DNA of 64,000 bases from assembly GCF_001042675.1 (NCBI RefSeq), contig NZ_AP012333.1, positions 744,001-808,000 on the forward strand, read 5' to 3'. Shown in pieces: positions 16,487-39,855 of this stretch (within the stretch, counting starts at the first letter, position 1; each line of letters begins with the position of its first letter). The notes under the pieces were generated by a model, which did not search any database, was not told where the DNA came from, and saw only the letters and a program-made list of their open reading frames with translations. The position numbers were made by a program, and so were the translations under genes. The stretch comes from Parascardovia denticolens DSM 10105 = JCM 12538 (GTDB lineage Bacteria > Actinomycetota > Actinomycetes > Actinomycetales > Bifidobacteriaceae).

Positions 16487-18343
16487 ATGAGCAAGAAAAA
16501 ACAGCCATCACCATTCTCGCGGAAACTATCCCGCTTCTGGGAGACCCTGTCCGCAGATAGCCAGGATGCGGCTTACAGCCGGACCTTTCGCAGGCGGACT
16601 GTGGTTTTCGGCCTGGCCATCGTCGTCCTCATCGTCGCCCTCATCATCCGTTTGACCTTCGTCCAGTTGGTCGAAGGACCGGCCATCGCCCAAGACGCCA
16701 TCCAGATGCGTACGGTGGATTACACCGTCCAGGCCCTGCGAGGGACCATCACGGATGTGAACGGGGTGGTCATGGCTCAAAGTCAGCAAAGGTACACCAT
16801 CTACGCCGACCAGAACGGCGCCCGCAACTTCCAGCCGAAAAAATGCACCGGGGACAACAAGGCTATCTGCCATTCCCTCGACGGCAAGCCCGTGCCTGGG
16901 TCCGGTCCCGGCGCCGTGGCCAAGATGCTGGCCCCGGTCCTCAAAATGAACGTCATGGAGCTGGGGGCCAAGCTGGCCGGGGTCAACTCCTACATCGTCC
17001 TGAAGAAGAACGTGACCCCGGCGACCAAACGAGCGGTCGACAACCTCCACCTGTCCGGGGTCATAGGGTCCGAACTGACCGTCACCCGTTCCTATCCCAG
17101 CGGGGCGACCGCCGGGGCCATCATCGGCGGGGTCAACAACGACGACGTGGGCGTGGCCGGGGTCGAGAAGATGTCGCAGGATTCCCTCAAAGGGGAGAAC
17201 GGCAAGCAGGTCTACCAGAGGGGGGAAAGCGGGGAGAAGATCCCCGGGACCGAATCGGTCACCAAACCGGCTAAAAACGGGGGCAAAGTCCGTCTGACCA
17301 TCGACCGCGACGTCCAATGGTTCGTGGAGAAGTCCTTGCAGGACCAGGAGAATAAGATTCACGCCCAATGGGGGATCGTCGTCGTGCAGGAAGTCAAGAC
17401 CGGCCGTATCCTGGCCGTCGCCGACACCAACCAGTATTCCGCTGGCGGCCCGGACGCCATCCTCAAAGGGTCCCTGTCCATGACGGCCACCTTCGAACCG
17501 GGGTCGGTCGGCAAGCTCATCACCTCTTCCGGCCTGATCCAAGAGGGCTTTGCCAAAGGATCCAGCCGTTACACCGTCCCCTACAGCTTCGTCTACCAGG
17601 GGCAGACCTACCACGACGCCGTCTACCATCCTGTGGAAAGGCTGACCCTGGCCGGTATCATCAACGAATCCTCCAACGTGGGCATGGTCAAATCAGCCGA
17701 GAAGTACCCGGTCAACCTGCGCTACGAATACCTGAAGAAATTCGGCATAGGGGAGCCGACTGGAATCGACTTCCCCGGAATCTCCTCCGGCGTCCTGTCT
17801 CCCGCCTCCTCCTGGGACGACCGCACCCGTCAGACCATCCTCTTCGGGCAGGGATACACCGTCAACGCCTTGCAGCTGACCAACATCGTGGCCACCATCG
17901 CCAACGGGGGAGTGCGTATGGGGCAGAGCCTGGTCGCTTCCTCCACCGATCAGGAAGGCAGGGACACGACCCCCCAGCCTCATGCCCCCACCCGGGTAAT
18001 CTCCAAATCCACCTCGGAGGACATGATGGACATGATGGAATCCGTCATGGACGAGGAATACGCCAACGTCTTCAAAGTCAACGGCTACCGTCTGGCGGGC
18101 AAGACCGGAACGGCGGAAGTCGTGGGTTCCAAAGGAGGCCTGACCCAGATCGTGGGCGACTCCTCGGTGGTCATCCCGGCCGACGACCCCCGTTTCGTCA
18201 TCACCGTGGCCTTCATGGATTCCTCCCAGCACGGCGGTTACGCCACCTCTCCGGTGACCAATCCTATTGGTGAATTCCTTATGCAGAAGTACAAGGTTCC
18301 CCAGTCCACCCCCCGCAAGAATGCTATAAGTACTACATGGTGA
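16487..18343 (+). CDS. ftsI: Peptidoglycan D,D-transpeptidase FtsI (class B penicillin-binding protein)
   Basis: FtsI makes septal peptidoglycan cross-links. The 618-residue protein has a cytoplasmic tail, one membrane helix (TVVFGLAIVVLIVALIIRLTF), a dimerisation domain (RGTITDVNGVVMAQSQ) and the transpeptidase domain. The active-site motifs are visible: SxxK as SVGK (S340-K343) in FEPGSVGKLI, SSN near residue 395 and KTG at about 539-541. The acylation motif reads GSVGK where many relatives have GSTxK, but both key residues are present. It is flanked by ftsL and a MurE-like gene. Confidence 0.96.
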   Translation: MSKKKQPSPFSRKLSRFWETLSADSQDAAYSRTFRRRTVVFGLAIVVLIVALIIRLTFVQLVEGPAIAQDAIQMRTVDYTVQALRGTITDVNGVVMAQSQQRYTIYADQNGARNFQPKKCTGDNKAICHSLDGKPVPGSGPGAVAKMLAPVLKMNVMELGAKLAGVNSYIVLKKNVTPATKRAVDNLHLSGVIGSELTVTRSYPSGATAGAIIGGVNNDDVGVAGVEKMSQDSLKGENGKQVYQRGESGEKIPGTESVTKPAKNGGKVRLTIDRDVQWFVEKSLQDQENKIHAQWGIVVVQEVKTGRILAVADTNQYSAGGPDAILKGSLSMTATFEPGSVGKLITSSGLIQEGFAKGSSRYTVPYSFVYQGQTYHDAVYHPVERLTLAGIINESSNVGMVKSAEKYPVNLRYEYLKKFGIGEPTGIDFPGISSGVLSPASSWDDRTRQTILFGQGYTVNALQLTNIVATIANGGVRMGQSLVASSTDQEGRDTTPQPHAPTRVISKSTSEDMMDMMESVMDEEYANVFKVNGYRLAGKTGTAEVVGSKGGLTQIVGDSSVVIPADDPRFVITVAFMDSSQHGGYATSPVTNPIGEFLMQKYKVPQSTPRKNAISTTW

Positions 18344-18488
18344 TGCGGGGTTGTGCGGCATATGCGGCATATGGTTCAGGGGCGGCCCCGGCGGCAGGGC
18401 AAGGAAACGCGAATGAGGAAATCGAGGAAAGCCGCGTCGGCGGCAAGCGAAGACGGATCGGATTTCCGGCGGAATTCAGGAGGTGGCT

Positions 18489-19730
18489 ATGAGCTTCTTG
18501 GCTGAGGCGACTTCGGTGCACTACCGGGTGGAAGACCTGGTTCTCCGGTTCGGGGCCAAAGCTTTCTTCCCCTATGGGCAGGATGTGACCATCACTTTTC
18601 TGACGGACGATATAGACGCCGTTTGCCCGGGAGCCCTCTACCTAGGGTGGGGGGACTCCTCCAGCCGGCAGGAGGACCTTTACCGCCAGATCCGCCAAGC
18701 CCAGGACAAGGGGGCGTACAGCATCCTCTTCCCTTCGGTTCTCTCCCATCTGGCGACCAAGGACGAGCTGGCGGCCGTGGCCAGCGTCCCCATTCTTTTC
18801 GGCGACCTCAACCAGCATGACTTGGGCCATTTAGCCTTCATCATGGCCGGGCAGCCGACCGATTCCCTGGCGACTTTCGGCCTGACCGGCCCCCAGGCGA
18901 CCTATGCGTCCGATTACCTGGCCCAGCTCTTGCATCTTCTGGGCAATCCCATCGGGGTGATCGATTCCCGCAAGTCCTTCTCTTTGGAAAGGGAGTTGGA
19001 TTGTTCCTATCCCTTGGGGCCCATCGATACGCAGATGATCCTCTCCCAGATGTTGGAGGACGGGGTCAATACGGTCATCCTGACCATGGACGAGGAGACC
19101 TTCGCCCCGGGCGCCCTGAGCCAGGTGAGCCTGGACGTCTGCGGCCGCACCCAGTCGGTGGACCTGGACCAGATCCCCGATACGGCCAAGGTCACCCGGT
19201 CGGGGCAGATGGACGGCGTCCGGCTTTCCGACGAATCAGCTGATGGTGCGGCCTCGGATGGGGAAGGGTCGGGCAAGGTCGGCTCCGGCCAGGGTTCCGG
19301 CTCGAAGACTGGGTCGGATTCCGGGATCGGCTCAGGCAAGCCGGACAGGGACAAGGCCACCAGCCGGTCCTGGTCCCGCTGGAGGTCCTCCTCCCGTAAG
19401 GCGATCATCCATGAAGCCCAGGAGGGCCTGCGCCCCCAGCTGCGGCGGGCGGTCAAGGATTTCGGGGCCGTCATCGATGACGACGCCCATTGCGTGATCC
19501 CCACCTTGGTTTCCCGGGACATCGCCTCCACGGTCGTCGAGACCCCCTTGGACCATCCCGACGAACTCTATCTGGCCGTTGCCATGGCCATGAGCGTGGG
19601 GGTGCGCAAGAACAACGTCCGGTCCGCCCTCCTGCTGGCACAAGAGATAGCCAAGCGGCAGGCGGCCGGTCCCCATCGGTCCGAAACCGATCGGGAAGGC
19701 CGTCCTCCGCATGTCGCCAGGAGCCGGTGA
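18489..19730 (+). CDS. MurE-like protein without ATP-binding loop (probable pseudoenzyme)
   Basis: The 413-residue protein sits where actinobacterial dcw clusters carry murE. Its first 210 residues follow the MurE layout: CPGALYLGWG (MurE: PGxLFVAxxG), QAQDKGAYSILF (AxxxGAxAVV), LAFIMAGQPTDSLATFGLTG (the MurE FYGxPSxxLxxIGITG stretch), then QMILSQMLEDGVNTVILTMDEETF (MurE: LxxMVxxGxxxVVMEVSSHAL). The nucleotide loop GTxGKTTT is replaced by GPQATYA, so ATP binding looks lost. A Ser/Gly-rich stretch at about residues 250-290 follows, and only a remnant of the central domain (HPDELYLAVAMAMSVGVRKNN). The C-terminal ligase domain is absent. AGGAGG lies five bases before the ATG. It may be structural or regulatory. 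Confidence 0.8.
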   Translation: MSFLAEATSVHYRVEDLVLRFGAKAFFPYGQDVTITFLTDDIDAVCPGALYLGWGDSSSRQEDLYRQIRQAQDKGAYSILFPSVLSHLATKDELAAVASVPILFGDLNQHDLGHLAFIMAGQPTDSLATFGLTGPQATYASDYLAQLLHLLGNPIGVIDSRKSFSLERELDCSYPLGPIDTQMILSQMLEDGVNTVILTMDEETFAPGALSQVSLDVCGRTQSVDLDQIPDTAKVTRSGQMDGVRLSDESADGAASDGEGSGKVGSGQGSGSKTGSDSGIGSGKPDRDKATSRSWSRWRSSSRKAIIHEAQEGLRPQLRRAVKDFGAVIDDDAHCVIPTLVSRDIASTVVETPLDHPDELYLAVAMAMSVGVRKNNVRSALLLAQEIAKRQAAGPHRSETDREGRPPHVARSR

Positions 19731-19853: not shown

Positions 19854-21431
19854 ATGATTTCCATGACCCTGGCCGAGACCGCTCAGGCCATGTCAGGCAA
19901 GCTCCTCGTTTTCGAGTCCGCTTCCGCTTCCATCGATAGTCAGGCCCAGGTCGATTCCGCCGTGACCGATTCCCGGCAGGTCCGCCCTGGCTCCCTCTTC
20001 GTGGCCATCAAAGGGGAACGCGTGGACGGGCATGCCTATCTGGAGCAGGCGGCCGCTGCGGGGGCCGTCGCCGCCGTGGTCGATCATGAAGTCGCCGGGG
20101 CCTCCTTGCCTCAGATTCTGGTGGAGGACACGGTCCGCGCTTTGGGCTTTCTGGCCCGTCATAACATCGAAAAACGCCGGAGCCTGGCCGGCCAGGCTAG
20201 GACCCCCTTCACCATCGTCGGCATCACCGGTTCGGTGGGCAAGACCACGACCAAAGACCTGATCCGCGCCTTGCTGTCCCCCTTGGGGCCGACGATCGCC
20301 CCCCAGGGTTCCTTCAACAACGAGATCGGCCTGCCCCTCACCGCCTTGCAGGTGGGGGAGGAGACCCGTTTCCTGGTGGCGGAGATGGGGGCTTCAGCCG
20401 TTGGGGAAATCGCATACTTGACCACCATCGCCCGGCCGGACCTAGCCGTCGAGCTGAAGGTGGGGGTGGCCCATCTGGGTGGATTCGGTTCCGTGGAGAA
20501 CATCCGCCAGGCCAAGAGCGAGCTGGTGAGGGCCTTGCCCCCCTCCGGCCTGGCCATCCTCAACGAGAACGACGAGAACATCCGCCTGATGCCGGAGATG
20601 ACCGGGGTCAGGAACCTCCTTTGGTTCGGTCTGCACGAGGACCGCCCCGATGAGGACCGCTCTGATGAGAGCGAGACCGCTTATCCCTCGGTCCCCTCCG
20701 CCATGTCCGCCGCCGAGATCTACGGCGACCAGGTGCAGGTGGATGACCAGGACCGCCCGTCCTTCACCGTCCATTTCCCTGACGGGACTGGCTGCCCCAT
20801 GAGCCTGGCTTTGCCGGGGCGGCACAACGTCATGAACGCCTTGGCCGCCATCTGCGTGGCCTACGCCATGGACCTGCCCACCGAGGCCATCGCAGGTATC
20901 CTGGCCCATCAAGGGGCCCAGAGCCCCCATCGCATGGACATCAGGCAGGTGCCCTTCCGTCCGGATTCCGACCTGGCCTTCACCCTCATCGATGACTCCT
21001 TCAACGCTAACCCCGATTCCATGAAGGCGGGCTTGGACGGCTTGGCCGCCTGGCATGCTGAAAGCCGGACCCGGGACGAGCGCCCCTACCGGGTGGCCGT
21101 ACTGGGCTCCATGCTGGAGTTGGGCCCCAACGAGAAGGAGCTCCATCAGCGGATGGGGGCCTACGCCCTTTCCGTCGCCGACATGGTGATCGCCGTCGGC
21201 AGCGAGGAGGAGCCCCATCTGGACGAGCTGGCCCATGACTTCGTTCTCGGAGCCGACCATGACCAAAAAGAGGCCGGGTCCATCCACTGGGTCCATTCGG
21301 CCGAGCAGGCGGCCGACCTGGTCAGGGGTTTGGAAGGGGAGCATAGGCAGACTGTAGTATTGTTGAAAGGGTCCCACGCGTCCGGTTTGCAAGGGCTAGC
21401 GGATTACTGGCTGGGACAGGCACGGAAGTAG
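19854..21431 (+). CDS. murF: UDP-N-acetylmuramoyl-tripeptide--D-alanyl-D-alanine ligase
   Basis: MurF adds D-Ala-D-Ala to the UDP-MurNAc tripeptide. The 525-residue protein has the N-terminal uridine-binding domain (DSRQVRPGSLFVAIKGERVDGH), the ATP loop GITGSVGKTTTKD, the family signature GSFNNEIGLPLTAL, and the C-terminal IDDSFNANPDSMKAGLDGL. An insertion rich in Asp/Glu lies near residues 262-285. The ATG follows AAAGGTG. The gene is 123 bp after the MurE-like gene and 4 bp before mraY. Confidence 0.97.
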   Translation: MISMTLAETAQAMSGKLLVFESASASIDSQAQVDSAVTDSRQVRPGSLFVAIKGERVDGHAYLEQAAAAGAVAAVVDHEVAGASLPQILVEDTVRALGFLARHNIEKRRSLAGQARTPFTIVGITGSVGKTTTKDLIRALLSPLGPTIAPQGSFNNEIGLPLTALQVGEETRFLVAEMGASAVGEIAYLTTIARPDLAVELKVGVAHLGGFGSVENIRQAKSELVRALPPSGLAILNENDENIRLMPEMTGVRNLLWFGLHEDRPDEDRSDESETAYPSVPSAMSAAEIYGDQVQVDDQDRPSFTVHFPDGTGCPMSLALPGRHNVMNALAAICVAYAMDLPTEAIAGILAHQGAQSPHRMDIRQVPFRPDSDLAFTLIDDSFNANPDSMKAGLDGLAAWHAESRTRDERPYRVAVLGSMLELGPNEKELHQRMGAYALSVADMVIAVGSEEEPHLDELAHDFVLGADHDQKEAGSIHWVHSAEQAADLVRGLEGEHRQTVVLLKGSHASGLQGLADYWLGQARK

Positions 21432-38205: not shown

Positions 38206-39855
38206 TCAGGCTTCCAAAAGCCGGGAGAGGACCTTGTCGTCGCCTTCATAGGCCACGTGCTTGTTCAGATGCTTGATCCAGCGCTCGTTCCCTTTGCCGA
38301 TGGCCAGGATGACGGTCATCCCCCCTTCTTCTTGGTGCCTGGCGGCGTCGCGGACCGCTTCTTCCAAGGCATGGGTCCTGTCCAGGACGATCCCGTGCTC
38401 CACCTGGGGGTTGGTCACCGCCTGGTCCATCTGCTGGCAGATCTCTTCCATGGGTTCGGTGTCGGTATCCTCTTCGGTGAAGATGAAGCGGGCGATGCGG
38501 TCCTGGGCGGCTTGGACGATCTCCTGCCGGCGGTCGTAGGCCTTATTGCCTGCCGAACCGGTCACCAGGATGATGCGCGGGTCCATCTTCCCATAAGCCT
38601 TGTCCACGTAATCCAGCAAGGCGGTGGTGGAGACCCCGTTATGGGCGTAATCGACCACGGCCAGACTCCCCTGGGGGCTGCTGAAGGTCTCCATCCTCCC
38701 CGAGATGGTCACCTTCTCCATGGCTTCCAAGGCTTGGGCGATGGCCGGGTCAGTCAGGTCCATCCCTAAGGACTTGACAATGGCGATGGCGGCGGCGGCG
38801 TTGGCGTAGTTGAAGTCGCCGGCGATGCTGAGGCGGAAGTCTTTGCTGAATCCCTGCCCATCGCTGATGCGGAACCCCAGCGTCGGATCCGGATCCAGAG
38901 GGCTGGCGGTGACGGTGGGGAGGGAAGCCAGACGGGAGTCTTCAGCCTCTTCGTGATGGGCTGATCCGCTTTCCCCCTGAACCAGGCGGAAAGCGGACAG
39001 GCCAGCCCCATGGGCCCGCGCGTCCTCGGCCACCAAAGAGGCATGGGCCATGGTCGCGTTCATGACCAGATTGTCGCTATTGGCCGCGATCTGGCGTTTG
39101 CAGTAGAAATAATCCTCGAAAGTGGGATGCTCGATGGGGCTGATGTGATCGGGGGAGATGTTGATGAAAGCCCCCACAGCCATCCTCAGACCGAAGACAC
39201 GCTGGACCTTGTAAGCCTGGGAGGAGACCTCCATGACCAGGTATTCCATGCCCGCGTCCACCGCCTGCCGCATCATCCGGTAGAGGTCCAGGGACTCGGG
39301 GGTGGTCAGGTTGGATTCCGTGAAGGTGGTCCCGTCCACGCAGTTGTCCACGGACGACAGGAGGGCGGCTTTGCCTCCGGAGTAGGCGGACAGGATGGCA
39401 TGGGTGAAGTAGGCGGTCGTGGTCTTGCCTTTTGTCCCGGTGATGCCGACCACTTTCAACTGGCTGGCGGGGTCGCCATAGAAGGCGGCGGAAAGGAGGG
39501 CCAGGGCTTGACGGACGTCGGTGACGATGATTCCCAAAGCCTTGGTCGCCGAGCTGAAATCCTCCTGGGCCACGTAGCAGGGCAGGCCGAGGGCGTCGGC
39601 CTGGTCCAGGTAGGAGCTGTGGAAACGGCCTTTGCAGACCAGGAGGCTGGCCGAGTCGATGGTACGGGAGTCATAAGTCAGGTTGCTGAAAACGATGGAG
39701 CTCAGGTCCTTCCCCAGCTGGGAACCCAGGCTTTCCAGGCTGTCCGCCCAGACCTCCCCGGCTATCAGCTCCCGCAGCAGACCATGGGAGGAGAGGATTT
39801 CAACGGCGTGAGAAAGGGTGATTCGGCCCTGAACGTTTTCAGTCATAAGCATCAT
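38206..39855 (-). CDS. murE: UDP-N-acetylmuramyl-tripeptide synthetase MurE (L-lysine/L-ornithine-type features)
   Basis: MurE adds the third stem residue to UDP-MurNAc-L-Ala-D-Glu. The 549-residue protein has a complete Mur ligase layout: YDSRTIDSASLLVCKG, the ATP loop GITGTKGKTTTAYF, NLTTPESLDLYRMM, VMEVSSQAYKVQRV, and the C-terminal VDYAHNGVSTTALLDYV. The specificity loop reads FTEEDTDTEP where DAP-adding MurE has DNPR. Together with TKGK, this points to a lysine- or ornithine-adding enzyme. It lies next to smc, outside the dcw cluster. No ribosome site is evident at 39855, and the ATG at 39846 is an alternative. Confidence 0.93.
   Translation of the reverse strand: MMLMTENVQGRITLSHAVEILSSHGLLRELIAGEVWADSLESLGSQLGKDLSSIVFSNLTYDSRTIDSASLLVCKGRFHSSYLDQADALGLPCYVAQEDFSSATKALGIIVTDVRQALALLSAAFYGDPASQLKVVGITGTKGKTTTAYFTHAILSAYSGGKAALLSSVDNCVDGTTFTESNLTTPESLDLYRMMRQAVDAGMEYLVMEVSSQAYKVQRVFGLRMAVGAFINISPDHISPIEHPTFEDYFYCKRQIAANSDNLVMNATMAHASLVAEDARAHGAGLSAFRLVQGESGSAHHEEAEDSRLASLPTVTASPLDPDPTLGFRISDGQGFSKDFRLSIAGDFNYANAAAAIAIVKSLGMDLTDPAIAQALEAMEKVTISGRMETFSSPQGSLAVVDYAHNGVSTTALLDYVDKAYGKMDPRIILVTGSAGNKAYDRRQEIVQAAQDRIARFIFTEEDTDTEPMEEICQQMDQAVTNPQVEHGIVLDRTHALEEAVRDAARHQEEGGMTVILAIGKGNERWIKHLNKHVAYEGDDKVLSRLLEA

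Follow-up and report, generated by a model that had tools for sequence, protein, structure and literature searches.

The psE gene and its neighbourhood

Between ftsI and murF in the division and cell wall cluster of Parascardovia denticolens DSM 10105 = JCM 12538 lies an open reading frame (ORF), here called psE, whose product is derived from MurE over two domains, has lost the ATP loop and the ligase domain, and is kept under purifying selection in the Bifidobacteriaceae. The window, that is, the whole stretch of 64,000 nucleotides (nt) analysed, covers positions 744001-808000 of contig C1 (NZ_AP012333.1; 1,890,857 bases), and the positions below are counted from its first letter.

18489..19730, +, psE, MurE-derived pseudoenzyme gene, 413 amino acids (aa) (ORF, profile match to MurE, predicted fold, family-wide presence)
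18478..18483, +, ribosome-binding site AGGAGG, 5 nt 5' of the ATG at 18489 (sequence)
18516..18854, +, psE residues 10-122, MurE domain 1, with the DSR and HG-loop motifs lost
18855..19163, +, psE residues 123-225, N-terminal part of MurE domain 2 (predicted fold)
18888..18908, +, GPQATYA, residues 134-140, remnant of the ATP loop GTNGKTT (alignment)
18930..18950, +, LHLLGNP, residues 148-154 (family consensus LHMLGNP), near-invariant loop, probably away from the old active site
19056..19064, +, EDG, residues 190-192, second near-invariant back loop (EEG in the reduced genus described below)
19164..19397, +, psE residues 226-303, low-confidence Ser/Gly-rich linker (model confidence, sequence)
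19398..19682, +, psE residues 304-398, C-terminal part of MurE domain 2 (predicted fold); domain 3 absent
16487..18343, +, ftsI (division transpeptidase), upstream neighbour of psE (Pfam PF00905)
19854..21431, +, murF, downstream neighbour of psE (TIGR01143)
38206..39855, -, catalytic-type MurE, Lactobacillales-like, beside smc (sequence matches, tree, motifs)

The cluster runs ftsI, psE, murF, mraY, murD, ftsW, murG, murC, ftsQ, where ftsI, murF and murG are named from protein families and the remaining names we take partly from the usual order of such clusters. psE and murF are separate ORFs 123 nt apart, with no MurE-MurF fusion. Domain 1 of MurE is its uridine diphosphate (UDP)-binding domain. 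The linker of the window psE (19164-19397) is a Ser/Gly/Asp-rich insertion. The median length among psE relatives is 295 aa (range 280-414 aa), with 87/135 at 275-299 aa and 6/135 at 400 aa or more, and the homologue of Scardovia wiggsiae is 58% identical to the window psE.

psE as a disarmed MurE

The MurE profile TIGR01085 matches psE at 19.2 bits (E=4.5e-4), below the curated cut-off of 257.3 bits, which the catalytic-type MurE of the window also misses slightly at 242.7 bits. The predicted structure of psE contains the fold of MurE domains 1 and 2 and gives a significant structural match to MurE; the structural alignment stops near residues 372-382 of the Mycobacterium tuberculosis enzyme, and Mur_ligase_C (PF02875), the ligase domain of MurE, has no Pfam match in psE. 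Among the matches listed by Foldseek and VIA there are only Mur ligases and their relatives (FPGS, cyanophycin synthetase), and Pfam scans of the window psE and 95 members returned no usable family. Naming is inconsistent: NCBI lists one psE relative as a 'hypothetical protein', and UniRef names it 'UDP-N-acetylmuramyl tripeptid...'.

The ATP loop G[TSA]xGK[ST] occurs in 0/135 psE homologues vs 61/61 MurE rows (60 distinct), which were initially picked by requiring the letters GK and give the same count, 61/61, without that filter. Only 8 of the 37 columns that are invariant in the MurE core are kept in psE and 29 are gone. A sequence-only reading of this stretch had described a MurE-like protein of two domains with GPQATYA at the ATP loop, no C-terminal ligase domain, a strong ribosome site and an intact frame, together with a catalytically intact murE near smc. 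All of this is borne out, the gene beside smc being of catalytic type by sequence (GTKGKT, with domain 3 present). Homology to an enzyme family, family-wide loss of catalytic motifs and purifying selection mark psE as a probable pseudoenzyme, and from its sequence we infer that it is without catalytic activity.

Retention and selection across the Bifidobacteriaceae

psE was found in 177 of the 189 family genomes searched and in 161/161 of those passing 90% completeness and 5% contamination. Loci were analysed one per genome in 135 genomes, nine duplicate or partial loci having been removed first; the psE frame is open in all 135, with no gene frameshifted, murF follows it in 135/135 and ftsI precedes it in 128/135. 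The median ratio of nonsynonymous to synonymous substitution (dN/dS) is 0.122 for psE (44 independent pairs), 0.105 for ftsI (41 pairs) and 0.148 for murF (44 pairs), as computed by our own Nei-Gojobori script on pairs of 62-99% identity and dS 0.05-1.6, filtered before pairing, with murF and ftsI taken as stop-to-stop frames, which in some cases extend upstream of the gene. Open frames, conserved position and low dN/dS are signs of a working protein, in agreement with the earlier view that the gene is not decaying. The stops inside a few psE matches are the gene's own stop codon where coordinates were compared (G131, G071).

Two loci show split matches in neighbouring genes, L098 in ftsI and mraY and L109 in ftsI and murF, each over two overlapping or successive frames, perhaps through assembly errors; psE itself is an open frame in both. 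At the deep family loci L121, L206, L207, L208, L218 and L219, ftsI lies directly 5' of murF, and L206-L208 have a MurE of a different lineage, encoded on the other strand a few kb past murF. Six genomes without psE (G013, G167, G168, G169, G170, G188) carry, where one was found, a MurE of another lineage, and the other six that lack a psE match are G010, G011, G012, G162, G163 and G166. In G222 and G223, other Actinomycetales with murE outside the cluster, ftsI stands beside murF with no psE remnant. The old copy can thus be lost, which makes its retention in the remaining genomes telling.

A profile search across the order gave a match in 208/297 genomes and none at E<=1e-8 in the other 89. 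Outside the family, all matches among those listed (to about 2e-12; best E 3.3e-27) lie in frames of at least 431 aa, the ordinary size of MurE, as judged by frame size with the ATP loops unread, and a truncated relative may therefore exist elsewhere in the order. An alignment-based protein search returned 17 proteins, scored among the 7997 candidates sharing most words and thus no measure of rarity, and a single-protein scan of genome contigs returned one relative, that of Scardovia wiggsiae. The literature searched, with subscription papers outside its scope, describes no MurE-like pseudoenzyme of Bifidobacteriaceae. Transposon-directed insertion site sequencing (TraDIS) of Bifidobacterium breve UCC2003 gave 453 essential genes, 53 of them hypothetical; in the main text of that report no word starting with 'mur' was counted (PMC5514069).

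Origin of psE and of the catalytic-type MurE

Four MurE profiles of unequal depth (34, 4, 4 and 6 rows) were compared with psE. The Actinomycetales profile was the best for 127/135 psE and reached E<1e-3 in 128, and a mixed profile (Paenibacillus, Bacillus, Monoglobus, Parabacteroides) was the best for 8/135 and passed in 89. The profile of Enterococcus, Latilactobacillus, Vescimonas and Collinsella MurE passed (E<1e-3) in 1/135, and that of the family's catalytic-type MurE with two Lactobacillales in 0/135. The place of psE, between ftsI and murF, is held by MurE in 26/30 Actinomycetales loci.

The smc-side MurE of the window scores 271 bits with Enterococcus faecalis, 254 with Latilactobacillus, 184 with the coriobacterium Collinsella and 81-110 with actinomycete records. 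The Lactobacillales matches all derive from plasmid records, 34 of which gave a match, and do not pin down the donor. An actinobacterial type, indicated by matches in the PDB of which Mycobacterium was the best, was rejected because Lactobacillales entries scored far higher. In a tree of 69 rows, 10 family MurEs group with Enterococcus and Latilactobacillus (SH-like approximate likelihood ratio test, SH-aLRT, 93) and are split from 41 actinomycete rows (SH-aLRT 100); this tree was made by a quick method with a midpoint root, has long rows, uneven composition and one gene entered twice (L183 = L193), and leaves the placement of the MurE of deep family members unsure.

Bifidobacterial walls contain Lys/Orn. 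The catalytic-type MurE, present in 161/161 good-quality family genomes, has GTKGKT and domain 3 and lacks DNPR, which is reported as a mark of diaminopimelate MurE enzymes (PMC3829189); because DNPR is absent, the smc-side MurE likely uses Lys/Orn, and an old transfer, fitting such walls, is its likely origin. psE and the catalytic-type MurE occur together in 175 genomes and are both absent from 11, with psE alone in 2 and MurE alone in 1, these three odd genomes being 76-82% complete.

A second Lactobacillales-type MurE copy, 48-52% identical to the window MurE, lies 1.6-1.7 kb from the first in 14 genomes (G072, G094, G082, G070, G043, G030, G041, G111, G078, G065, G086, G019, G059, G073).

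Shift of conservation within psE

Conservation was compared over 204 core columns between 34 Actinomycetales MurE and 95 psE rows, in residues 10-225 only, because the joint alignment is unreliable near the C-terminus. Per-column conservation is uncorrelated between the two sets (r=0.007). It falls, from MurE to psE, at loops of catalysis and substrate binding, namely the ATP loop (88th to 33rd percentile), FTNL (90th to 7th), EVSSHAL (78th to 51st), TTPE (81st to 63rd) and DSR (68th to 46th), stays nearly unchanged at QRTL (63rd to 60th) and goes up at the GAY loop (64th to 79th), while the largest rises are those of two helix-to-strand loops, LHxLGNP (35th to 88th) and EDG (48th to 80th). 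Over the 135 psE rows N153, P154, E190, G192 and D216 are invariant and H149 varies once, and all six are retained in 7/7 genomes of the reduced genus. In a parallel alpha/beta fold the ATP loop and the helix-to-strand loops lie at opposite edges; in the psE model the conserved loops would accordingly sit opposite the old ATP loop, where they could form a protein-binding face. Conservation away from the old ATP loop fits a binding role for psE.

Covariation with FtsI and the reduced genus

Rate covariation was computed on a set of 12 genes (37/41 taxa had all 12) and on a set of 4 genes (76 taxa, 4/80 loci omitted: L098, L109, L114, L115), with the shortest branches removed except in the q=0 settings and with p values uncorrected for multiple testing. 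FtsI is the top partner of psE in 11/11 settings, at 0.24-0.58 over nine 12-gene settings (one of them 0.34) and at a partial rho of 0.43-0.47 vs 0.21-0.35 for the other five pairs of the 4-gene set; the uncorrected p is 0.013. FtsI and FtsW, which are known partners, covary at 0.27-0.38 in the 12-gene runs, and similar values occur elsewhere in that matrix (murC-murD 0.35, mraY-ftsQ 0.33). The FtsI tails have no conserved motif among 80.

A genus with reduced genomes (0.6-0.9 Mb) keeps psE in 7/7, with rsmH directly 5' of psE-murF in all seven (loci L137, L142, L143, L145, L148, L151, L153; L312-L317, L332-L337), and FtsI and FtsW orthologues were not found in these seven genomes. In six of them the sole class B transpeptidase match is PbpA-type (253-274 bits to the PbpA of the window genome, no FtsI match) and the sole FtsW-like match is RodA-type (>400 bits to a RodA and 56-90 to FtsW). 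In the remaining genome, G177 (87% complete), only a class A transpeptidase was found. We assigned the PbpA, RodA and class A labels from the resemblance of these proteins to the other copies in the window genome. SepF, FtsZ and MurG have matches in 7/7; FtsZ is fragmented in G176, G177 and G178, falling under the cut-off in G176 and G177, and all seven MurG matches score below the curated cut-off. FtsI as the sole partner of psE was rejected because this genus keeps psE without detectable FtsI or FtsW.

Possible roles of psE

Taken together, we consider it probable that psE is the old resident MurE turned pseudoenzyme, its chemistry having likely passed to a MurE of Lactobacillales type, and that it likely persists as a scaffold without catalysis. 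In the simplest history of such a displacement, a MurE would have been imported and taken over, and the resident copy would have lost catalysis and stayed. psE would then be a structural subunit docking cytoplasmic Mur enzymes or division proteins that every carrier keeps, with MurF, MurG, the new MurE, or SepF and FtsZ as candidates; since a partner should exist in every carrier genome, FtsI or FtsW alone would not be the whole answer. A more far-reaching version, which we put forward tentatively, is a split MurE, in which the imported enzyme does the chemistry and the disarmed native MurE, as a dedicated and essential hub, uses its newly conserved face to organise division and the making of wall precursors. 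Of the earlier interpretation, MurE descent, disarming and conservation stand, while psE may act on the Mur/division machinery as a scaffold or a regulator, a role with which the loop conservation agrees.

Several points weigh against the scaffold. It is argued from sequence, and its partners are putative. The constant neighbour murF has no standout covariation with psE (-0.14 to 0.16, 12 genes), the covariation with the catalytic-type MurE is negative (-0.05 to -0.35), and the FtsI signal either does not reflect binding or means that the role of psE is wider. The segments behind the percentiles were chosen after the alignment had been inspected, and the 'back face' of psE was placed by strand order in the model, not by coordinates; the hairpin 163-170 lies off that side and rises too (39th to 62nd percentile), and there is hardly any variation at R168, P175 and T204, so that not all new conservation falls on the presumed back loops. 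Six lower-completeness family genomes (G013, G167, G168, G169, G170, G188) have ftsI adjoining murF with nothing between, and the role is therefore not required by all. The co-occurrence of psE and the catalytic-type MurE amounts to one or very few evolutionary events. Finally, in the assays reported for M. tuberculosis the Mur ligases did not bind each other, contrary to a Mur-Mur scaffold (PMC3605390).

Other explanations fit parts of these data. A divisome adaptor coupled to FtsI, serving as a specific tie between the septal synthase FtsI/FtsW and the supply of precursors, would explain why FtsI is the strongest covariation partner in all settings and the equally adjacent murF is not outstanding. 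We regard it as unlikely, given that the reduced genus keeps psE without detected FtsI/FtsW, that FtsI occurs without psE in 6 genomes and lacks a tail motif, and that murC-murD and mraY-ftsQ rival a signal with an uncorrected p of 0.013. psE could also be a ligand sensor that still binds UDP-N-acetylmuramic acid (UDP-MurNAc)-peptides and exerts control over MurE, MurF or the whole cluster, as the predicted domain 1 fold and the invariant or nearly invariant T34, T36, S37, G48 and Y77 would allow; DSR, TTPE and FTNL bind substrate in MurE structures, however, and these columns are less conserved in psE than in MurE and the loop following the DSR strand is shortened, which makes such a sensor improbable.

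psE might instead have gained a different catalytic activity with no relation to Mur ligation, for which near-invariant polar residues such as H149, N153, R168 and D191, all different from those of MurE, could speak. This seems equally improbable, because the loops that carry the two clearest clusters of conservation are, as we read them, across from the usual catalytic edge and the listed Foldseek and VIA matches are Mur ligases and relatives only. That psE is a slowly decaying relic, or a sequence retained for operon spacing alone, we hold very improbable: the loss of 29/37 core columns and a length varying between 280 and 414 aa would suit it, but psE is kept in 161/161 good genomes with 135/135 frames open and a dN/dS of 0.122, is present even in genomes of 0.6-0.9 Mb, and no remnant of it is left in two other actinobacteria whose murE lies outside the cluster.

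psE is thus found in the division cluster of every good-quality genome searched of a major human gut family, and has no Pfam family. If the scaffold is real, catalysis and complex-building, usually combined in one enzyme, would be separate roles, and the long-debated cytoplasmic Mur-enzyme complex would become testable, since a structural MurE could be removed with catalysis untouched.

Comparison with known systems

Compared with actinomycetal and mycobacterial MurE (2wtz/2xja, 8g6p), psE has neither the ATP loop nor domain 3, keeps only 8/37 of the invariant core columns and is conserved at other positions. The smc-side MurE, similar to those of Enterococcus and Latilactobacillus, belongs to the same superfamily and genome as psE and is of another lineage, with GTKGKT and domain 3 and without DNPR. 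Mur ligases of M. tuberculosis were scored as binding FtsZ, FtsW, FtsQ, Wag31 and the SepF orthologue in the interaction results of one report (PMC3605390; correction PMC10965061). The MurE-MurF fusion of Bordetella (8f5d; PRK11929) has, like psE, its MurE part beside MurF, but there it is within a bifunctional fusion enzyme, whereas psE has an ORF of its own and lacks the ATP loop; the fusion is reported to bind MurG with a dissociation constant (KD) of 0.57 uM, and an apparent 0.97 uM for the oligomer (PMC6420597).

The PAP11/MurE-like protein of plants (8r6s, 8r5o, 8xzv) is longer than psE and is a subunit of the plastid-encoded RNA polymerase. According to the two reports cited, plant MurE became part of plastid transcription, and most seed-plant forms retain DNPR or DNPK (PMC9434261, PMC9456514). 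PAP11 is a precedent only, with no common recent origin implied; if the scaffold reading is true, psE would be its bacterial counterpart, a MurE fold turned into the subunit of another machine.
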